Below, piece by piece: positions 41,988-47,824 of a DNA stretch of 51,242 nucleotides. Source of the DNA: Cyclobacteriaceae bacterium (GTDB taxonomy: Bacteria > Bacteroidota > Bacteroidia > Cytophagales > Cyclobacteriaceae). Made by a program: the position numbers and the translations under genes. The stretch is taken from NCBI GenBank assembly GCA_026989505.1, contig JALSJF010000217.1, positions 1 through 51,242 of the forward strand, given 5' to 3'. Each line of letters begins with the position of its first letter. The first letter of the stretch is position 1. The notes below the pieces were generated by a model. The model searched no databases. It worked only from the letters and a program-made list of their open reading frames with translations, and was not told the origin of the DNA.

Positions 41988-42749
41988 TTAATTTTTATTG
42001 TCGGGTTTATTATGCATAAGCCAACTGAAGCCGGCAGAGGCAAAATTCATCGGGTGGTTAACCCCCGTACCCAAAGAAAAGTCTAATTGAAAGTTGTCTT
42101 TTAGTAAATACGTAAGACCGGCATTAATATTTACCTTGTGATAGAACGCATTAAGGGACCCGTAGGGCTCAAAGAAGACCGATAATTTCTCTGTTATGCC
42201 TGTGCCAACGGCCAGTGTGTAGGTTAATTCTCCTTTGCCGGCACCAGAATGGTTGTAGCCAAAATTATAACCGATGGCGGTGTTTTTACTTAATTGGTGT
42301 GAGACGGAAAGCGTATTACGTGCACCCACAGAATTTAACGTTAACCCTGCAGCGCCTGTTGGCAGAACTACGTGGGATATGATGGCAATTTCGGTGTTTA
42401 TGTCGGCCCGGCTAAGCAGGTTGATTTTTGCCCCGATTTCCAAATCGCTGAAGCCTTTGGTTTCTTTGTCGTTGATTTGGTTGTTGATACGCTCAAATTG
42501 ATTGAATACCCTGAGTTCGATGCTTTTGGTCAGGCCAAAACGCAATAATGTGGTGGGTATCAACAGTTGTTTTACGGAAAATAAATTATCCCCGGTAAAC
42601 CGAAGCAAAACCCCACTCTCTATTTGCATACTTCTCCGGGGAACGGTTGAGGAACTTTCTGTCTGATCCGGCCGGTCCGTAACAATTGTCTGCGCCCTTA
42701 TGCTGCCGGCAGCAAGCATTATAATGAAAAATAACAAGCAGCCCTTCAT
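41988..42749 (-). CDS. Outer-membrane beta-barrel protein at the end of the feo cluster
   Basis: The 253-residue protein has a signal peptide ([20 protein letters not shown]) then [20 protein letters not shown], the usual opening of the 'transporter / phenol MetA-degradation' barrel family (PF13557-like). The rest is alternating strands ([64 protein letters not shown]). ATG 42749 overlaps the stop of the FeoB permease gene in an ATGA junction, so the start upstream at 42860 is rejected. Coupling to FeoB suggests a role in getting iron across the outer membrane; this is inference. Confidence 0.78.
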
Positions 42750-44191
42750 GGTTTCACCTCTGGCATCAGCCAAATTAAATGCCAGAATTGTGTGACCAGA
42801 AAAGTAACTACCAAACCCATGATAACCGGCAATAGGCTGGCCAGGGTAGTCCATTTCCAACTATTGGTTTCTTTGTAGATGGTATAGATGGTTGTGCTGC
42901 ACGGGTTGTGTAATAAGCTGAAGAGCATCAGGTTGATACCGGTAAGCAGGGTCCAACCCCCGGCCGACAAAATGCTGCCGGTTGCCATGGCCGAGTCCAG
43001 TTCAAATAGCTTGCCGCTGGTATCGCCCACCCCAATCAGCCCCAGGTTGGCTACGGTAAGCATGAGGATCGTGGGGATAACGATTTCATTGGCCGGGATG
43101 GCAATGATATACGCCAGCAGGATGACTCCGTTGAGGCCGACAAACACCCCCAATGGGTCAAGGAAATCAATTACGTGATTGGCGATGGTTATGTCCCCGA
43201 TATGCACGTTGGCCACCAGCCAGATCACGGCCCCGGCCGGGGCGGCAAAAATCACAGCCCGCCACAGAACAATTAAGGTACGGTCGATTACCGAGGTATA
43301 AATGGTTTGCCATATCCTGGGTGGCCGGTAGGGGGGCAGTTCCAGGGTAAAGGTTGACACCTCGCCTTTAAGCACTGTTTTTGATAACCCCCAGGAGGTA
43401 AGGAACATAAACGCTACCCCCAGCAGGGCAATACCGATAACGGCAGCCGAGGCCACCAGCCCCGACAGGGAAGCCGGCACCAGGGCACCGATAAAAATAG
43501 TGGCAATCAGGATTTGCGTAGGCCAGCGGCCATTGCAGAGGGAGAAATTATTGGTAATGATGGCAATCAGCCGCTCCCGTGGGCTGTCGATAATGCGCGT
43601 GGCAATAACCCCGGCCGCATTGCAGCCCCAGCCCATGCTCATGGTCAGGGCCTGCTTGCCATGGGCCCCGGCCTTTTTAAACAGGGCATCCATATTGAAG
43701 GCTACCCGGGGCAGGTAGCCGAAATCTTCCAGCAAGGTAAACAAGGGGAAGAAAATAGCCATCGGGGGCAGCATTACCGCCACTACCCAGGCCACGGCCA
43801 GGTAAATACCATCTATCAGCAGGCCGTCCAGCCACAGGGGCAGGCCGATGTGGGCGGCCAGGCTCTTCAGCAACGGGTGAACCGTGTCGATCAACAGGGT
43901 AAAAAGCATTCCCGAAGGGTAATTGGCGCCTTCAATGGTAATCCACAGGATAACGGCCAGCAAGCCGATCATAATCGGGAACCCCCAGGTTTTGCTGGTG
44001 ACGATCTTATCTATTTTACTGTCAAAAGTATAATGGCGTTCCCCTGCCGGTGTTTCTACGGCATGGGCAGCAATTTGGGCTGCATCGGTGTAGATGCCTT
44101 CGGTGAGTTTGTCGTGAAAATTATCACCGAGTTGCCAGCGTAAACCGGCCGCCCGGGCCAGTATTTCGTTATCTTTTTCTGCTTCTGTCAT
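42746..44191 (-). CDS. FeoB membrane domain as a separate protein
   Basis: The 481-residue membrane protein matches the C-terminal part of FeoB, with two Gate (nucleoside-recognition) domains and about nine to ten helices. Conserved landmarks are [57 protein letters not shown] (Cys190) and [17 protein letters not shown] (Cys219), which align with FeoB's GCNVPAI and PFMSCGARLP regions. The GTPase part is missing from this chain and is encoded just upstream, with a four-base ATGA overlap. It should form the ferrous iron pore in the inner membrane. N-terminal residues 1-60 are soluble and may be the docking surface for the GTPase. Confidence 0.87.
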
Positions 44192-44967
44192 GGCCGTACC
44201 AGTTCCTTTAATTCATTGTTTTTTACAGCTGCGGTGATGCGGCTGTCGCCTTCGAGCAGGCGGAAAGCTAGCCAACGGCTGTTGGGCAGGCCGGGGAACT
44301 GCTGCTCGAGGGCTCCGGCCAATTGTTTTACCGCCTTTTCTACCGGTTTGCTCAGGTTTTTCACCTTGTGCGGACGGCAAATGATGGCCCCGGTGGCCAC
44401 ATCGTCAATGGCTTTGAGTAATTCGGGGATGCCTTGCTGGCTGCGGGCCGTAGTGGGCACTACCGGAATGCCCAGGTCCCGGGCCAGGGCCCGCTGGTCT
44501 ATTTTAATGTGGTGCCGGGCGGCTTCGTCAATCAGATTAAGGCACAGTACGGCTTTATCGGTGATTTCAAGCACCTGCAAGGTAAGGTTAAGGTTGCGCT
44601 CTAACCGTGAGGCATCCACCACAATTACCGTTACATCGGGACGGCCAAAGAGAATAAAATTGCGCGCCACCTCTTCATCCTGCGAGGTAGAAAGCAGGGA
44701 ATAGGTGCCTGGCAGGTCGATAAGCTTGTATTTATGGCTGTTATAAGAAAATCCGCCTTCGGCACGCACCACTGTTTTCCCCGGCCAGTTGCCGGTGTGC
44801 TGGCGCATGCCGGTGAGGGCATTGAAAACCGTACTCTTGCCGGTGTTGGGGTTGCCGGCCAGGGCAACCACATAATCAACATTAGCGGTGTCGATCCCGA
44901 GTTTTTTCAACCCCGCGGTATTATGTAAGGCACAATTGTTACAGGCAGTATTATCCGGCATAGGCAT
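44188..44967 (-). CDS. FeoB GTPase domain as a separate protein
   Basis: The 259-residue soluble protein is the G domain plus helical GDI-like domain of FeoB. Motifs are G1 GNPNTGKST (38-46), a G2 threonine in NWPGKTV, G3 DLPG (84-87), G4 NLID (144-147) and G5 TTARS (172-176). There is no membrane helix. The N-terminus has a Cys pair (Cys9, Cys12 in ACNNCALHN) that could bind metal. It is a natural split of FeoB: stop TGA overlaps the permease ATG. The start codon overlaps the end of the FeoA-fusion gene by 17 bases. Confidence 0.9.
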
Positions 44968-45982
44968 GGGTATTGGTTTTTTTGATTAATATCAGGTCGG
45001 CCAGGTCCTGGCGTAAAGCAATGGTGGTATTGCGTATTTTATAGGCTACCGGGTCTTGCAGGGGGCTGGTAAAGTCAACTTCCACGGTGGTGCCCGGCAG
45101 GATGCCGAGGTCGAGCAGGCGCCTGCGGCTGGCCCCCCGGCATTCCTGGGAAATGCCGATCACGCGGGCTTGCTCACCTTCTCGCAAGGCCGACAGGCGG
45201 ATAGCATTTTCCTGATAGTGCTCTTCGGTGGCCAGGGGCCCGACACTAATATTGGCCGCCACAATGGGGGATAAACGGTGTTGATGCCCCTCACAGGTAA
45301 AAACTATTTCACGGGCCGTTGATTTACGTATTTTAACATGCGAACCCACCAAAATGCGCCTGGCCAGGATCTGTTGGTAAATTACACCCGGTTCGTCTTC
45401 AATATGCACAATTTTGCCGGGCACATTCTCCGGGTAGGAGGGTAAGGGCTGCCATTTTACCGGCAACACCTCGCCTTTGGCCGAAGGGATCGGGTCGCCA
45501 TGCGGATCAAATAAGGGGTTGCCCAACGATGCGCTGAGGTTGCTGATGGCCGCTTCGTCCAGCCGGTGTTCCATTTTTTCGGCCAGGTGGTGCCACTCGG
45601 AGGGCTGGTGGCCGGTTTTTTCGGCCAGGTATTTTTCCCATAACCGGTGTACGCGCACTATCTTCAGCGCATATTCACGGCCGGCCGGGGTTAGTTGCAG
45701 GCGGTCATCGGAGGTCTGGATTAACCCTGAGGCAGCCATGGCTTCAATAACCGGTAATATTTTACTTCTGCGTACCTTTAAGGCGCCCGACAAATCGCTG
45801 AGGGTGGCCGACCGCTGGCTTTGCTCTACGTGGTAGAGCTGTTTCAGGATGTCTTCGGTTAGCGTTTTCTGTTGCCTGGTTTTGGTATGCAAAATATTTT
45901 TGCGGGTAATAAGCCGGATAGCCAGCCAGAGGAGGGCAACCAGGGCAAAGAAGCCGATGAGGTTTAAGGCAGCCGGGTTCAT
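44951..45982 (-). CDS. Membrane-anchored DtxR-like protein fused to FeoA
   Basis: The 343-residue chain reads: membrane helix (5-25, LNLIGFFALVALLWLAIRLI), winged helix (about 42-108, LSDLSGALKVRRSKILPVIE), DtxR/MntR metal-binding and dimerisation domain (110-165), SH3-like domain (188-250) and FeoA domain (262-336, RRRLLDLGILPGTTVEVDF). Metal ligands of the MntR type are kept: His112, Glu116, His131/His132, Glu135, Glu138 and His139. The topology predicts all soluble domains in the cytosol. FeoA normally stimulates FeoB; here it is tied to a metal sensor and to the membrane. Whether the winged helix still binds DNA is unclear. ATGA overlap with the upstream regulator gene. Confidence 0.85.
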   Translation of the reverse strand: MNPAALNLIGFFALVALLWLAIRLITRKNILHTKTRQQKTLTEDILKQLYHVEQSQRSATLSDLSGALKVRRSKILPVIEAMAASGLIQTSDDRLQLTPAGREYALKIVRVHRLWEKYLAEKTGHQPSEWHHLAEKMEHRLDEAAISNLSASLGNPLFDPHGDPIPSAKGEVLPVKWQPLPSYPENVPGKIVHIEDEPGVIYQQILARRILVGSHVKIRKSTAREIVFTCEGHQHRLSPIVAANISVGPLATEEHYQENAIRLSALREGEQARVIGISQECRGASRRRLLDLGILPGTTVEVDFTSPLQDPVAYKIRNTTIALRQDLADLILIKKTNTHAYAG

Positions 45983-46638
45983 AGTTTTTCAATAAAGATA
46001 TTGCCGGCCACCTTACCCGATAAGGTGATGGCCGGGCCATGGTTTATACGTACCGAATAGGTGCCATCATAAGCAAAATAATCCAGCAGTTCTATCTCTG
46101 CCCCCAGGCTGATGTTCAGCTTGTCAAGAAACAGCAGGAAGTCGCTGGAAGAATCCTTGGTGGATATGACTTTTCCAAGATCACCGGTGGCCAGCATATT
46201 CAGGGTGGTGGTTGGCCGGGGCGCCATTTTTCCTTCGGCATCGGGGATGGGGTCACCGTGGGGGTCATATTTTGGATGGGCGAGGAACTTGTCGAGCTGG
46301 GCAATTAGTTGGGGCGATTTTATGTGCTCCAGTTCTTCGGCAATAGCGTGTACTTCATTCCAGTTGAACTTGAGCTTTTGTACCAGGAATACCTCCCAGA
46401 GCCGGTGCCTGCGGATTACCTGCAAGGCGGCTTTTTCACCACTCGGGGAGGTGTTTACCCCCTGGTATTTGTGGTAGTGCACAAGCCCCTTTTTGCTCAG
46501 CCGCTGGATCATATCGGTGGCCGAGGCGGCCGAGGTGTCCAGGGTTTCGGCCAGCTTGCTGGTGCTGACAAACTCCTTCTCGTTGCCGGACAGTTTATAG
46601 ATGGCTTTCAGGTAATTCTCTTCTGTTGGCGTAAACAT
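45979..46638 (-). CDS. DtxR/MntR-family metal-dependent repressor
   Basis: The 219-residue cytosolic regulator has a winged helix (MFTPTEENYLKAIYKLSGNE, STSKLAETLDTSAASATDMI), the metal/dimer domain with His78, Glu82, His97, Glu101, Glu104 and His105, the Bacteroidota 'PHGDPIP' motif, and a C-terminal SH3-like domain (145-219). Glu101 replaces the DtxR cysteine, as in MntR, but Asn8 and Lys11 replace the MntR Asp8/Glu11 pair, so the metal (iron or manganese) is uncertain. It heads the feo cluster and most likely represses it through the inverted repeats at 46650-46729. ATG 46638 follows a perfect -7 box by four bases. Confidence 0.9.
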   Translation of the reverse strand: MFTPTEENYLKAIYKLSGNEKEFVSTSKLAETLDTSAASATDMIQRLSKKGLVHYHKYQGVNTSPSGEKAALQVIRRHRLWEVFLVQKLKFNWNEVHAIAEELEHIKSPQLIAQLDKFLAHPKYDPHGDPIPDAEGKMAPRPTTTLNMLATGDLGKVISTKDSSSDFLLFLDKLNISLGAEIELLDYFAYDGTYSVRINHGPAITLSGKVAGNIFIEKL

Positions 46639-46642
46639 GGTA

Positions 46643-46664
46643 CAAATATATTTAGGCAAATATA
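46643..46664 (-). promoter_or_regulatory. Two TATATTTG -7 boxes upstream of the feo-cluster regulator
   Basis: Two perfect TAnnTTTG boxes read leftward at 46650-46643 and 46664-46657. The nearer ends four bases before the ATG at 46638. The left arm of the outer operator repeat (46650-46661) lies across them, so a bound repressor would block polymerase. No TTG is seen at the -33 position. Confidence 0.5.
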
Positions 46665-46729
46665 AAAATAAAATAGCATTAATCTAAAATATTATTTAGA
46701 TTAACCTAAAAATAAACATTTGCCTAAAT
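46650..46729. promoter_or_regulatory. Nested inverted repeats, probable DtxR-type operator
   Basis: Outer arms ATTTAGGCAAAT (46650-46661) and ATTTGCCTAAAT (46718-46729) are exact complements. Inside, TTAATCTAAA (46679-46688) and TTTAGATTAA (46695-46704) are another exact pair. TTTAGATTAACCTAAA (46695-46710) is a near-palindrome much like known DtxR/IdeR/MntR sites (TTAGGTTAACCTAA type). The common half-site is TTTAG(A/G). The rightmost arm covers the stop codon of the glycosyltransferase gene. Confidence 0.75.
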
Positions 46730-47824
46730 TAGCTGGTTGACCAGGGATAGAAGCTTAGTTTCTTCTGTTTTCCACATAATTTCCTTTATATCAGTAGAAT
46801 AGATATTATTTTTTAAGGTGTTAATTCTATTTATCTGGCTTGTAGTAACGGGCTTGTTGAAATCAATAACCATGCCTGCCCGGTATTTTTCAATCCGGTG
46901 TTGCCATTTTAGGTTGGGTGAAATAAGGATGGGCAAACCCAGCCCTAGGTACTCATATAGCTTGGTAGGAATTTTATTCCGGATGCTTTTATTGTCTTCA
47001 TAGGGCAGCAAGCCGATGGTTTTATCGCCAATTTGCTGGTAAATTTCAGCTTGCGGAATGGGTGTTGGAGAGACCCGGAAATTGATGTTCTGCAGTTGGG
47101 CTGTCGCCTGCTGTAATTGCCTTAACGTTGCCGGGTGCGGACAATGCCCGATCAGGGTTAAGGCATATTTTTCCTGTGGCAGTTGCCGGAAAAACCGGAG
47201 GGCGGCAAAGGCCCCGTACTCCTTGCTGATAGTACCTGACAGTAACAGGGTAATTTTATCCTGCGGATTGTTGGCTGGCGGCTGTGCCGGTGGCTTGAAT
47301 TTATTTTCGATGACCGTGTACCGGTTGCCGGTAAATTTCAGTTCCTTCTGATAGCATTGTTCGGCCAGGATAAAATGGCTGAAAAAATGGGCGGTCAGCC
47401 GTTCTTTCAGGCGTACGTAAAAAGCCAGCAGGTGTTTTATGCCCTTGGGGTAATGGCTTTGATAGCGCAGGTTAAAATAGTAATTTTCCCGGATATCGTA
47501 AACGGGGTTATGGCAGGTAATGAGTTTATAGAGTACCGCCATGAAGATTAATTCATGGGTATTGATAATCAATACTTGCGGTTTTATTTTCAGGGTAAGC
47601 CAGAGGATACGCCAGGGCAATAGTAAGCGTTGCCAGCTACCTTTAACCCGGGTTGCCAGCGGATGCAAGGTTATGGCCGCAGTATCTGGCTTCCGGGAGG
47701 GTGCTGAACCGATAATATGCACCGCATATTTACCGGTAGCAGCCAGGCTTTTGGCAAATTTTTCGTAAGCTCTTGGGTCAATTACTGGCTTTAATGTGCC
47801 AGCAATTACTATCTTCGCTTTCAA
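46724..47824 (-). CDS. Glycosyltransferase, GT-B fold, family 4-like
   Basis: The 366-residue cytosolic enzyme begins KAKIVIAGTLKPVIDPRAYE and has VLIINTHELIFMAVLYKL in the N-terminal domain, YDIRENYYFNLRY, and the donor-binding half with LLLSGTISKEYGAFAALRFF, IGLLPYEDNKSIRNKIPTKL and YEYLGLGLPILIS, where the glutamate-rich ESxGLPxL-like site of group 1 transferases sits. Acceptor is unknown; surface polysaccharide is likely. The start is TTG at 47824 because the codon two places upstream is a stop. It is divergent from dapD, with just 27 bases between the two starts. Confidence 0.8.
   Translation of the reverse strand: MKAKIVIAGTLKPVIDPRAYEKFAKSLAATGKYAVHIIGSAPSRKPDTAAITLHPLATRVKGSWQRLLLPWRILWLTLKIKPQVLIINTHELIFMAVLYKLITCHNPVYDIRENYYFNLRYQSHYPKGIKHLLAFYVRLKERLTAHFFSHFILAEQCYQKELKFTGNRYTVIENKFKPPAQPPANNPQDKITLLLSGTISKEYGAFAALRFFRQLPQEKYALTLIGHCPHPATLRQLQQATAQLQNINFRVSPTPIPQAEIYQQIGDKTIGLLPYEDNKSIRNKIPTKLYEYLGLGLPILISPNLKWQHRIEKYRAGMVIDFNKPVTTSQINRINTLKNNIYSTDIKEIMWKTEETKLLSLVNQLI

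Follow-up and report, generated by a model that had tools for sequence, protein, structure and literature searches.

A membrane-anchored DtxR-FeoA fusion in Bacteroidota as a putative metal-sensing FeoA of a divergent FeoB

How FeoA affects the transporter FeoB is a long-standing question, and the function of FeoA itself is debated. Here we describe a protein in which an N-terminal transmembrane (TM) helix, a DtxR-type metal sensor and a FeoA domain are joined in one chain, encoded directly before FeoB in a 51,242-nt contig of a Cyclobacteriaceae bacterium (the window, to which all gene coordinates below refer). Its closest published relative is PgMntR (PG1044) of Porphyromonas gingivalis, which the relevant parts of PMC4805248 describe as the highly soluble product of a 933-bp open reading frame (ORF), with two FeoA-type domains placed after a DtxR winged helix-turn-helix (wHTH) and metal domain, sharing an operon with FeoB2 (FB2), a manganese transporter. 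The DNA-binding domain of PgMntR is placed there from residue 13, which leaves no room for a membrane helix. In Chlamydia, YtgC-YtgR joins an ABC permease to a DtxR module, and orthologous fusions are reported in 11 phyla (sections of PMC5599777). In Bacteroides fragilis, FeoA is fused to FeoB, whose GTPase domain is its proposed target (excerpts of PMC8980893). FeoA-DtxR fusions were excluded from the survey in PMC8980893, going by the same excerpts, and the text of PMC8749426 contains no mention of DtxR. No description of a membrane-anchored DtxR-FeoA protein was found in the literature searched, most subscription papers lying outside that search. The domains and partners of the fusion are known; its arrangement is new, and its mode of action probably so.

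The fusion gene (343 aa; 44951-45982, minus strand) overlaps by 4 nt the preceding gene for a soluble DtxR/MntR-type repressor (219 aa; 45979-46638, minus strand), both lying where a sequence-only reading of the window had placed them. That reading had described a membrane-tethered sensor fused to a full FeoA domain, and had set the DtxR-like nature of the N-terminal part as a test. The chain starts with a predicted transmembrane segment (about residues 4-22; 45917-45973, minus strand; best 19-residue Kyte-Doolittle mean 2.41), followed by K/R-rich residues that fit an N-out/C-in orientation, and continues with a winged helix (residues 40-98), a metal/dimer domain (99-170), an SH3-like domain (186-250) and FeoA (262-335). 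Pfam matches were obtained to Fe_dep_repr_C (5e-24, residues 98-166) and FeoA (PF04023; 1e-22, residues 262-334), that to Fe_dep_repress (9e-4) being under its curated cut-off, and no permease domain was found in the chain by Pfam, its membrane helix being single. FeoA is here not a small free-standing cytosolic protein, but the C-terminal domain of a 343-residue chain with a predicted membrane helix.

An AlphaFold2 model built from the family alignment (mean predicted local distance difference test, pLDDT, 93.6; predicted TM-score, pTM, 0.85) contains a single helix from residue 3 to 54, in which the membrane helix runs unbroken into the first helix of the winged helix and which carries Glu43, Asp44 and Lys47. 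The top Foldseek match of the model is the Mn-dependent repressor 5zr6 (TM-score by target 0.87-0.89), and VIA-align superposes it on 5zr6_B with a Z of 22.2 and an rmsd of 1.6 over 206 residues at 29% identity (fusion residues 41-250), chains of the Mn-dependent repressor DR2539 tying with 5zr6_B within 1 Z. The model and its PDB matches, the latter dominated by residues 36-250, show a DtxR fold in the N-terminal part. The 5zr6 and DtxR/IdeR/MntR structures share the fold of fusion residues 41-250, whereas the match to 5zr6 reaches neither the membrane helix nor the C-terminal FeoA domain and the solved chains are repressors.

The fusion is no chance arrangement; it is a conserved family carried by many Bacteroidota. 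It was present at E<=1e-30 in 41 of 395 sampled genomes of the phylum (window genome included), in 5 of 59 close relatives (the window genome among them) and at 21 loci in a scan of named genomes, the sole source of the fusion loci from outside the sampled phylum (L027, L028). Wider stretches were taken around the fusion for 40 other phylum genomes and 4 close relatives, and after removal of L069, which is identical to L023, 65 fusion copies remain, window included, all of them distinct and with 3 pairs more than 90% identical. Cultured bacteria with the operon include Mangrovimonas sp. ST2L15 and Lutimonas saemankumensis DP2N0-7. All 65 have the FeoA domain PF04023, PF02742 and, in frame, a hydrophobic N-terminal segment (best 19-residue mean 1.47-3.40); in L073, L076 and L084 this segment starts ahead of the first ATG chosen. 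K/R residues are commoner after than before this segment in 63 of 65 fusions, which fits a cytosolic body. In addition, a FeoB-subfamily gene is directly next in 65 of 65 loci, the FeoB genes running off the contig in L104 and L028. The search for the full architecture that the sequence-only reading had proposed thus bore out the tether, the FeoA domain and the FeoB neighbour, and its suggested link to split FeoB holds for most loci but not for L027, L100 and L102, where FeoB is unsplit. Soluble DtxR directly precedes the fusion in 56 of the 65 loci and was not found at the threshold used in L026, L027, L028, L073, L082, L084, L100 and L101. One gene stands between the two in L068 (L068:7775-10421), and it encodes an MntH-type Nramp protein of 641 aa with a C-terminal Usp domain.

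The strongest indication of a role for the fusion as the FeoA of its transporter is that it replaces a free FeoA. At E<=1e-70, the FeoB subfamily was found in 46 of the 395 genomes, including all 41 that carry the fusion. In four of the remaining five (L138-L141) a free FeoA immediately precedes FeoB_N and a separate soluble DtxR is also encoded, and their FeoB is split though no fusion is present; the locus of the fifth (L142) ends at a contig edge. In the complete loci found for this subfamily, therefore, the slot before FeoB holds either a free FeoA or the fusion. A FeoB tree of 33 of the 65 fusion loci, the 4 free-FeoA loci and 7 canonical FeoBs from these or related genomes set the subfamily off from the canonical proteins by very long branches with 99-100% support, and grouped the free-FeoA loci with fusion locus L027 (89% support); row L098 (414 aa), entered in it as "canonical", covers the FeoB_N half of its locus and was disregarded. 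A tree of the FeoA domain was set aside because the domain is too short and support was poor, its "canonical" row L010 also being the wrong ORF. The window genome additionally encodes an unsplit canonical FeoB with an adjoining FeoA on another contig. The replacement of a free FeoA supports a role at FeoB, as had been proposed, with the amendment that this FeoB belongs to a subfamily far from the canonical FeoB of the same genome. Judged from these sequence comparisons, the fusion has most likely taken the place of FeoA, serving FeoB as a metal-sensing subunit held at the membrane.

Within the DtxR module the metal site is kept and the DNA-reading surface is decayed. Of the 65 fusions, 64 retain every one of the nine metal ligands. 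The five ligands named in the sequence-only reading are present, with His112, Glu116, Glu138 and His139 each found in all 65 copies and Glu135 in 64 (Asp in one), and the soluble repressor keeps their equivalents (H78, E82, E101, E104 and H105). His131 and Asp44 are further positions of the site, and the SH3-domain motif His193-x-Glu195-Asp196-Glu197-Pro198 is invariant in the fusions (His193, Asp196 and Glu197 in 65/65), but not in the soluble paralogs. Across the 57 genomes that have both proteins, the mean pairwise identity of the metal domain is 60.8% for the fusion versus 59.0% for the soluble paralog, whereas that of the recognition helix is 22.9% versus 56.0% and that of the wing 29.1% versus 49.8%. 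Over residues 59-98 the mean net charge is -1.25 in the fusion versus +2.35 in the soluble protein in these genomes, and the Pfam DNA-binding domain PF01325 (E<=0.01) was matched by 15/65 fusions versus 57/57 soluble paralogs. The conserved recognition helix and wing expected of DtxR/MntR repressors are therefore not kept, and the fusion appears to have lost DNA binding. The earlier idea of a division of labour agrees with this, the recognition helix being decayed in the fusion and conserved in its soluble paralog. Another position of the module, Lys47, is invariant in the 65 fusions. It corresponds to Glu11 in Bacillus subtilis MntR, an E11K mutant of MntR has a PDB entry (4hx7), and this natural Lys47 variant may alter the second metal site.

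Mn(II) is the probable metal of the system. Alignment to IdeR gives the MntR type of site at the two positions that set the preference for Mn or Fe in MntR/DtxR proteins: residue 44 is Asp in 60 of 65 fusions and Asn in the other 5, and Glu135 is kept in 64 of 65. Strong Nramp matches (E<=1e-100) occur in 2 of the 46 FeoB-subfamily genomes versus 145 of the 349 others (Fisher p 6e-8, a value that ignores kinship). One of those two genomes is G294 (L068), whose Nramp gene lies inside the operon. Elsewhere, a non-fusion DtxR match lies at most 3 kb from a strong Nramp in 34 of the 43 genomes that have both among the matches listed. Mn(II) is considered likelier than Fe(II) because of the MntR-type ligands, the scarcity of MntH, the one operon that includes MntH, and the position of PgMntR as closest published relative. 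Of the metal sensing proposed from sequence, the DtxR-like sensor stands, with Mn(II) likelier than Fe as its metal.

A tree of the DtxR module, which used 30 of the 65 fusions and 25 of the 57 soluble paralogs, separated the 30 fusions and three ABC-3 permease fusions from 44 soluble DtxRs with a Shimodaira-Hasegawa-like approximate likelihood ratio (SH-aLRT) support of 99. With such a branch, the fusion is unlikely to be a recent copy of its soluble neighbour. The fusions as one group received a support of 41, with L028 (on a very long branch) falling apart from them, and of 90 without L028; the long rows L028 and L102 leave the inner order of the tree unsure. The three ABC-3 permease-DtxR fusions (L152:5241-6791, L154:688-2175 and L155:1495-2985) have a metal domain and an SH3-like domain. 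No Fe_dep_repress match was found in them (E<=0.001 for L152; E<=0.01 for L154 and L155), so that the Pfam DNA-binding match is absent from all three, as it is from most TM-DtxR-FeoA fusions.

Sequence and structure prediction together show the DtxR fold, the nearly invariant metal site, the decayed DNA surface, the continuous helix, the FeoA domain, the position before FeoB and the exchange with a free FeoA, and these suggest how the device might work. The sensor body would lie in the cytosol, held at the inner membrane by the N-terminal helix, where cytosolic Mn(II), or less likely Fe(II), would bind the dimeric sensor. Metal binding would move the SH3-like domain and FeoA relative to the FeoB GTPase, this shift would lower import in a metal-replete cell, and the adjoining soluble DtxR would perform the transcriptional part. 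That the fusion gates FeoB, and in which direction, is what we infer from its parts. The odds lean modestly toward the fusion being a metal-sensing, membrane-held FeoA, in place of the free FeoA that a Mn(II)-type FeoB importer would otherwise have. The complete reading, of a membrane Mn(II) sensor that no longer reads DNA and whose FeoA directly opens or closes a FeoB Mn importer, while its soluble cousin controls transcription, has in our estimate a probability of about 45%.

Several observations weigh against that reading, and some of them favour a membrane-stored repressor, either released by proteolysis or acting from the membrane, in which FeoA would be structural as in PgMntR. The winged-helix fold at the N-terminus of the sensor is retained in the AlphaFold2 model and in the PDB matches, and the transporter-attached modules share one side of the DtxR tree. 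Precedents also exist, since PgMntR with its twin FeoA binds the promoter of its own FeoB2 operon (PMC4805248), and the DtxR part of the permease fusion YtgC-YtgR is cleaved off and released as a repressor (portions of PMC5599777). We nevertheless regard this main rival as improbable, given that the recognition helix and wing of the fusion are unconserved and on average net negative, that a soluble repressor with a conserved reading head adjoins in 56/65 loci, that the fusion occupies the slot of the free FeoA, and that the three ABC-3-DtxR fusions are likewise without a Fe_dep_repress match. Still further from likely is a pure scaffold, in which anchor and FeoA would hold the detached GTPase half by the membrane half, with the DtxR part a non-sensing dimeriser. 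A tether could help a FeoB split within its GDI domain, as in the window, and FeoB is split in most loci. However, tethered fusions accompany an unsplit FeoB in three loci (L027, L100, L102), and four loci have a split FeoB and a free FeoA without the fusion, so tether and split are not bound together; in addition, a simple dimeriser would have no need of nine ligand positions that are conserved in 64/65 copies.

The other adverse points concern the metal. The contrast in Nramp takes no account of relatedness, and a single family supplies 54 of the 145 genomes that have a strong Nramp but not this FeoB. Counting any Nramp at E<=1e-20, matches were found in 13 of 46 FeoB-subfamily genomes versus 233 of 349 others, and the window genome has two such weaker matches (best 1.6e-61); Mn import would therefore not run uniquely via the fusion system. 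An iron version of the same device, in which sensor and FeoB handle Fe(II) rather than Mn(II), is nonetheless unlikely in view of the MntR-type ligands at the two positions that decide the Mn/Fe choice, the rarity of strong Nramp in FeoB-subfamily genomes, the Nramp inside one operon, and the separate canonical FeoA/FeoB pair in the window genome. What speaks for it is that FeoB and FeoA take their name from Fe(II), and that PgMntR binds both Fe(II) and Mn(II) (PMC4805248).

In the window, the genes for the soluble DtxR, the fusion, the FeoB GTPase half, the FeoB membrane half and a PF13557 protein overlap on the minus strand (46638-41988); the first four make up the core system. The soluble DtxR, presumed to be the first gene of the operon, has a winged helix, a metal/dimer domain and an SH3-like domain (PF01325 3.7e-22, PF02742 9e-30), and no third PF02742 match to the DtxR metal domain was found in the window genome. 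The FeoB N half (259 aa; 44188-44967, minus strand; FeoB_N 2e-61) overlaps the fusion gene by 17 nt and consists of the GTPase domain and the start of the helical GDI domain, its FeoB_Cyto match spanning only profile positions 3-53 of 90. The membrane half (481 aa; 42746-44191, minus strand) has the Gate and FeoB_C domains and overlaps the N half by 4 nt (44188-44191), so that the split falls within the GDI helical domain. The PF13557 protein, of outer-membrane type (41988-42749, minus strand; 2.8e-20, scanned from 42773), has its ATG at 42749, overlapping the FeoB stop by 4 nt. In 11 of 65 loci, the window among them, a relative is encoded close to the operon on the same strand, and 3 more have one on the opposite strand only. 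The protein is a possible partner of the system and might be a metal porin of the outer membrane.

Upstream of the soluble DtxR gene, a candidate operator region (46639-46740, minus strand) has TTTAGG/CCTAAA half-sites 90, 72 and 18 nt ahead of the start codon, and no perfect inverted repeat with arms >=7. The upstream set comprises 55 regions, two of the 57 soluble DtxR rows (L022 and L068) being omitted. TWAGG-N3-8-CCTWA was found in 6 of these regions (200 2-base-block shuffles: mean 0.23, maximum 2), and perfect inverted repeats with arms >=7 in 11 (30 shuffles: mean 2.2, maximum 5), a partial signal that may reflect an operator.

A natural fusion of FeoA to a sensor offers a direct handle on how FeoA acts, as metal can be added or removed and the FeoB GTPase activity or transport followed. 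If the proposed reading is true, DtxR-type sensors can act by protein contact instead of DNA binding, and FeoA gains a clear role as a docking port for regulation. The system would also let Mn(II) into Bacteroidota whose genomes mostly have no strong MntH match, and the TM-DtxR-FeoA and ABC-permease-DtxR fusions would form a lineage of DtxR sensors attached to transporters.

Comparison with the described systems places the fusion closest to PgMntR, which it resembles in having twin FeoA-type domains (the SH3-like and FeoA domains) after the metal domain, and ligands of the His166/Asp169/Glu170 type. By residue number, without a sequence alignment, the ligands His85, Glu89, His104, Cys108, Glu111, His112, Asp132, His134, His166, Asp169 and Glu170 given for PgMntR in PMC4805248 match fusion residues 112, 116, 131, 135, 138, 139, 159, 161, 193, 196 and 197, each shifted by 27, and are identical except for Cys108/Glu135. 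At a lowered threshold, no soluble twin-FeoA protein of PgMntR type was apparent in ten loci chosen, mostly for their long reading frame, among the matches listed, nine being soluble DtxRs (frames of 229-352 aa) and one the ABC-3 permease-DtxR fusion L152; the link to P. gingivalis therefore rests on the residue numbers of PMC4805248. The fusion differs from PgMntR, soluble by that account, in its N-terminal membrane helix. With YtgC-YtgR, as portrayed in the sections of PMC5599777 cited above, it shares a DtxR module covalently joined to the membrane part of a metal importer, although there the module sits C-terminal to an ABC permease and has no FeoA fused behind it. Finally, the B. fragilis FeoAB protein, going by the excerpts of PMC8980893, is similar in that FeoA is covalently tied within the Feo system, but in that protein FeoA is joined to FeoB itself and no DtxR sensor is present, whereas FeoB_N in the window is a separate overlapping gene, so that FeoA is fused to the sensor and not to the FeoB GTPase domain.

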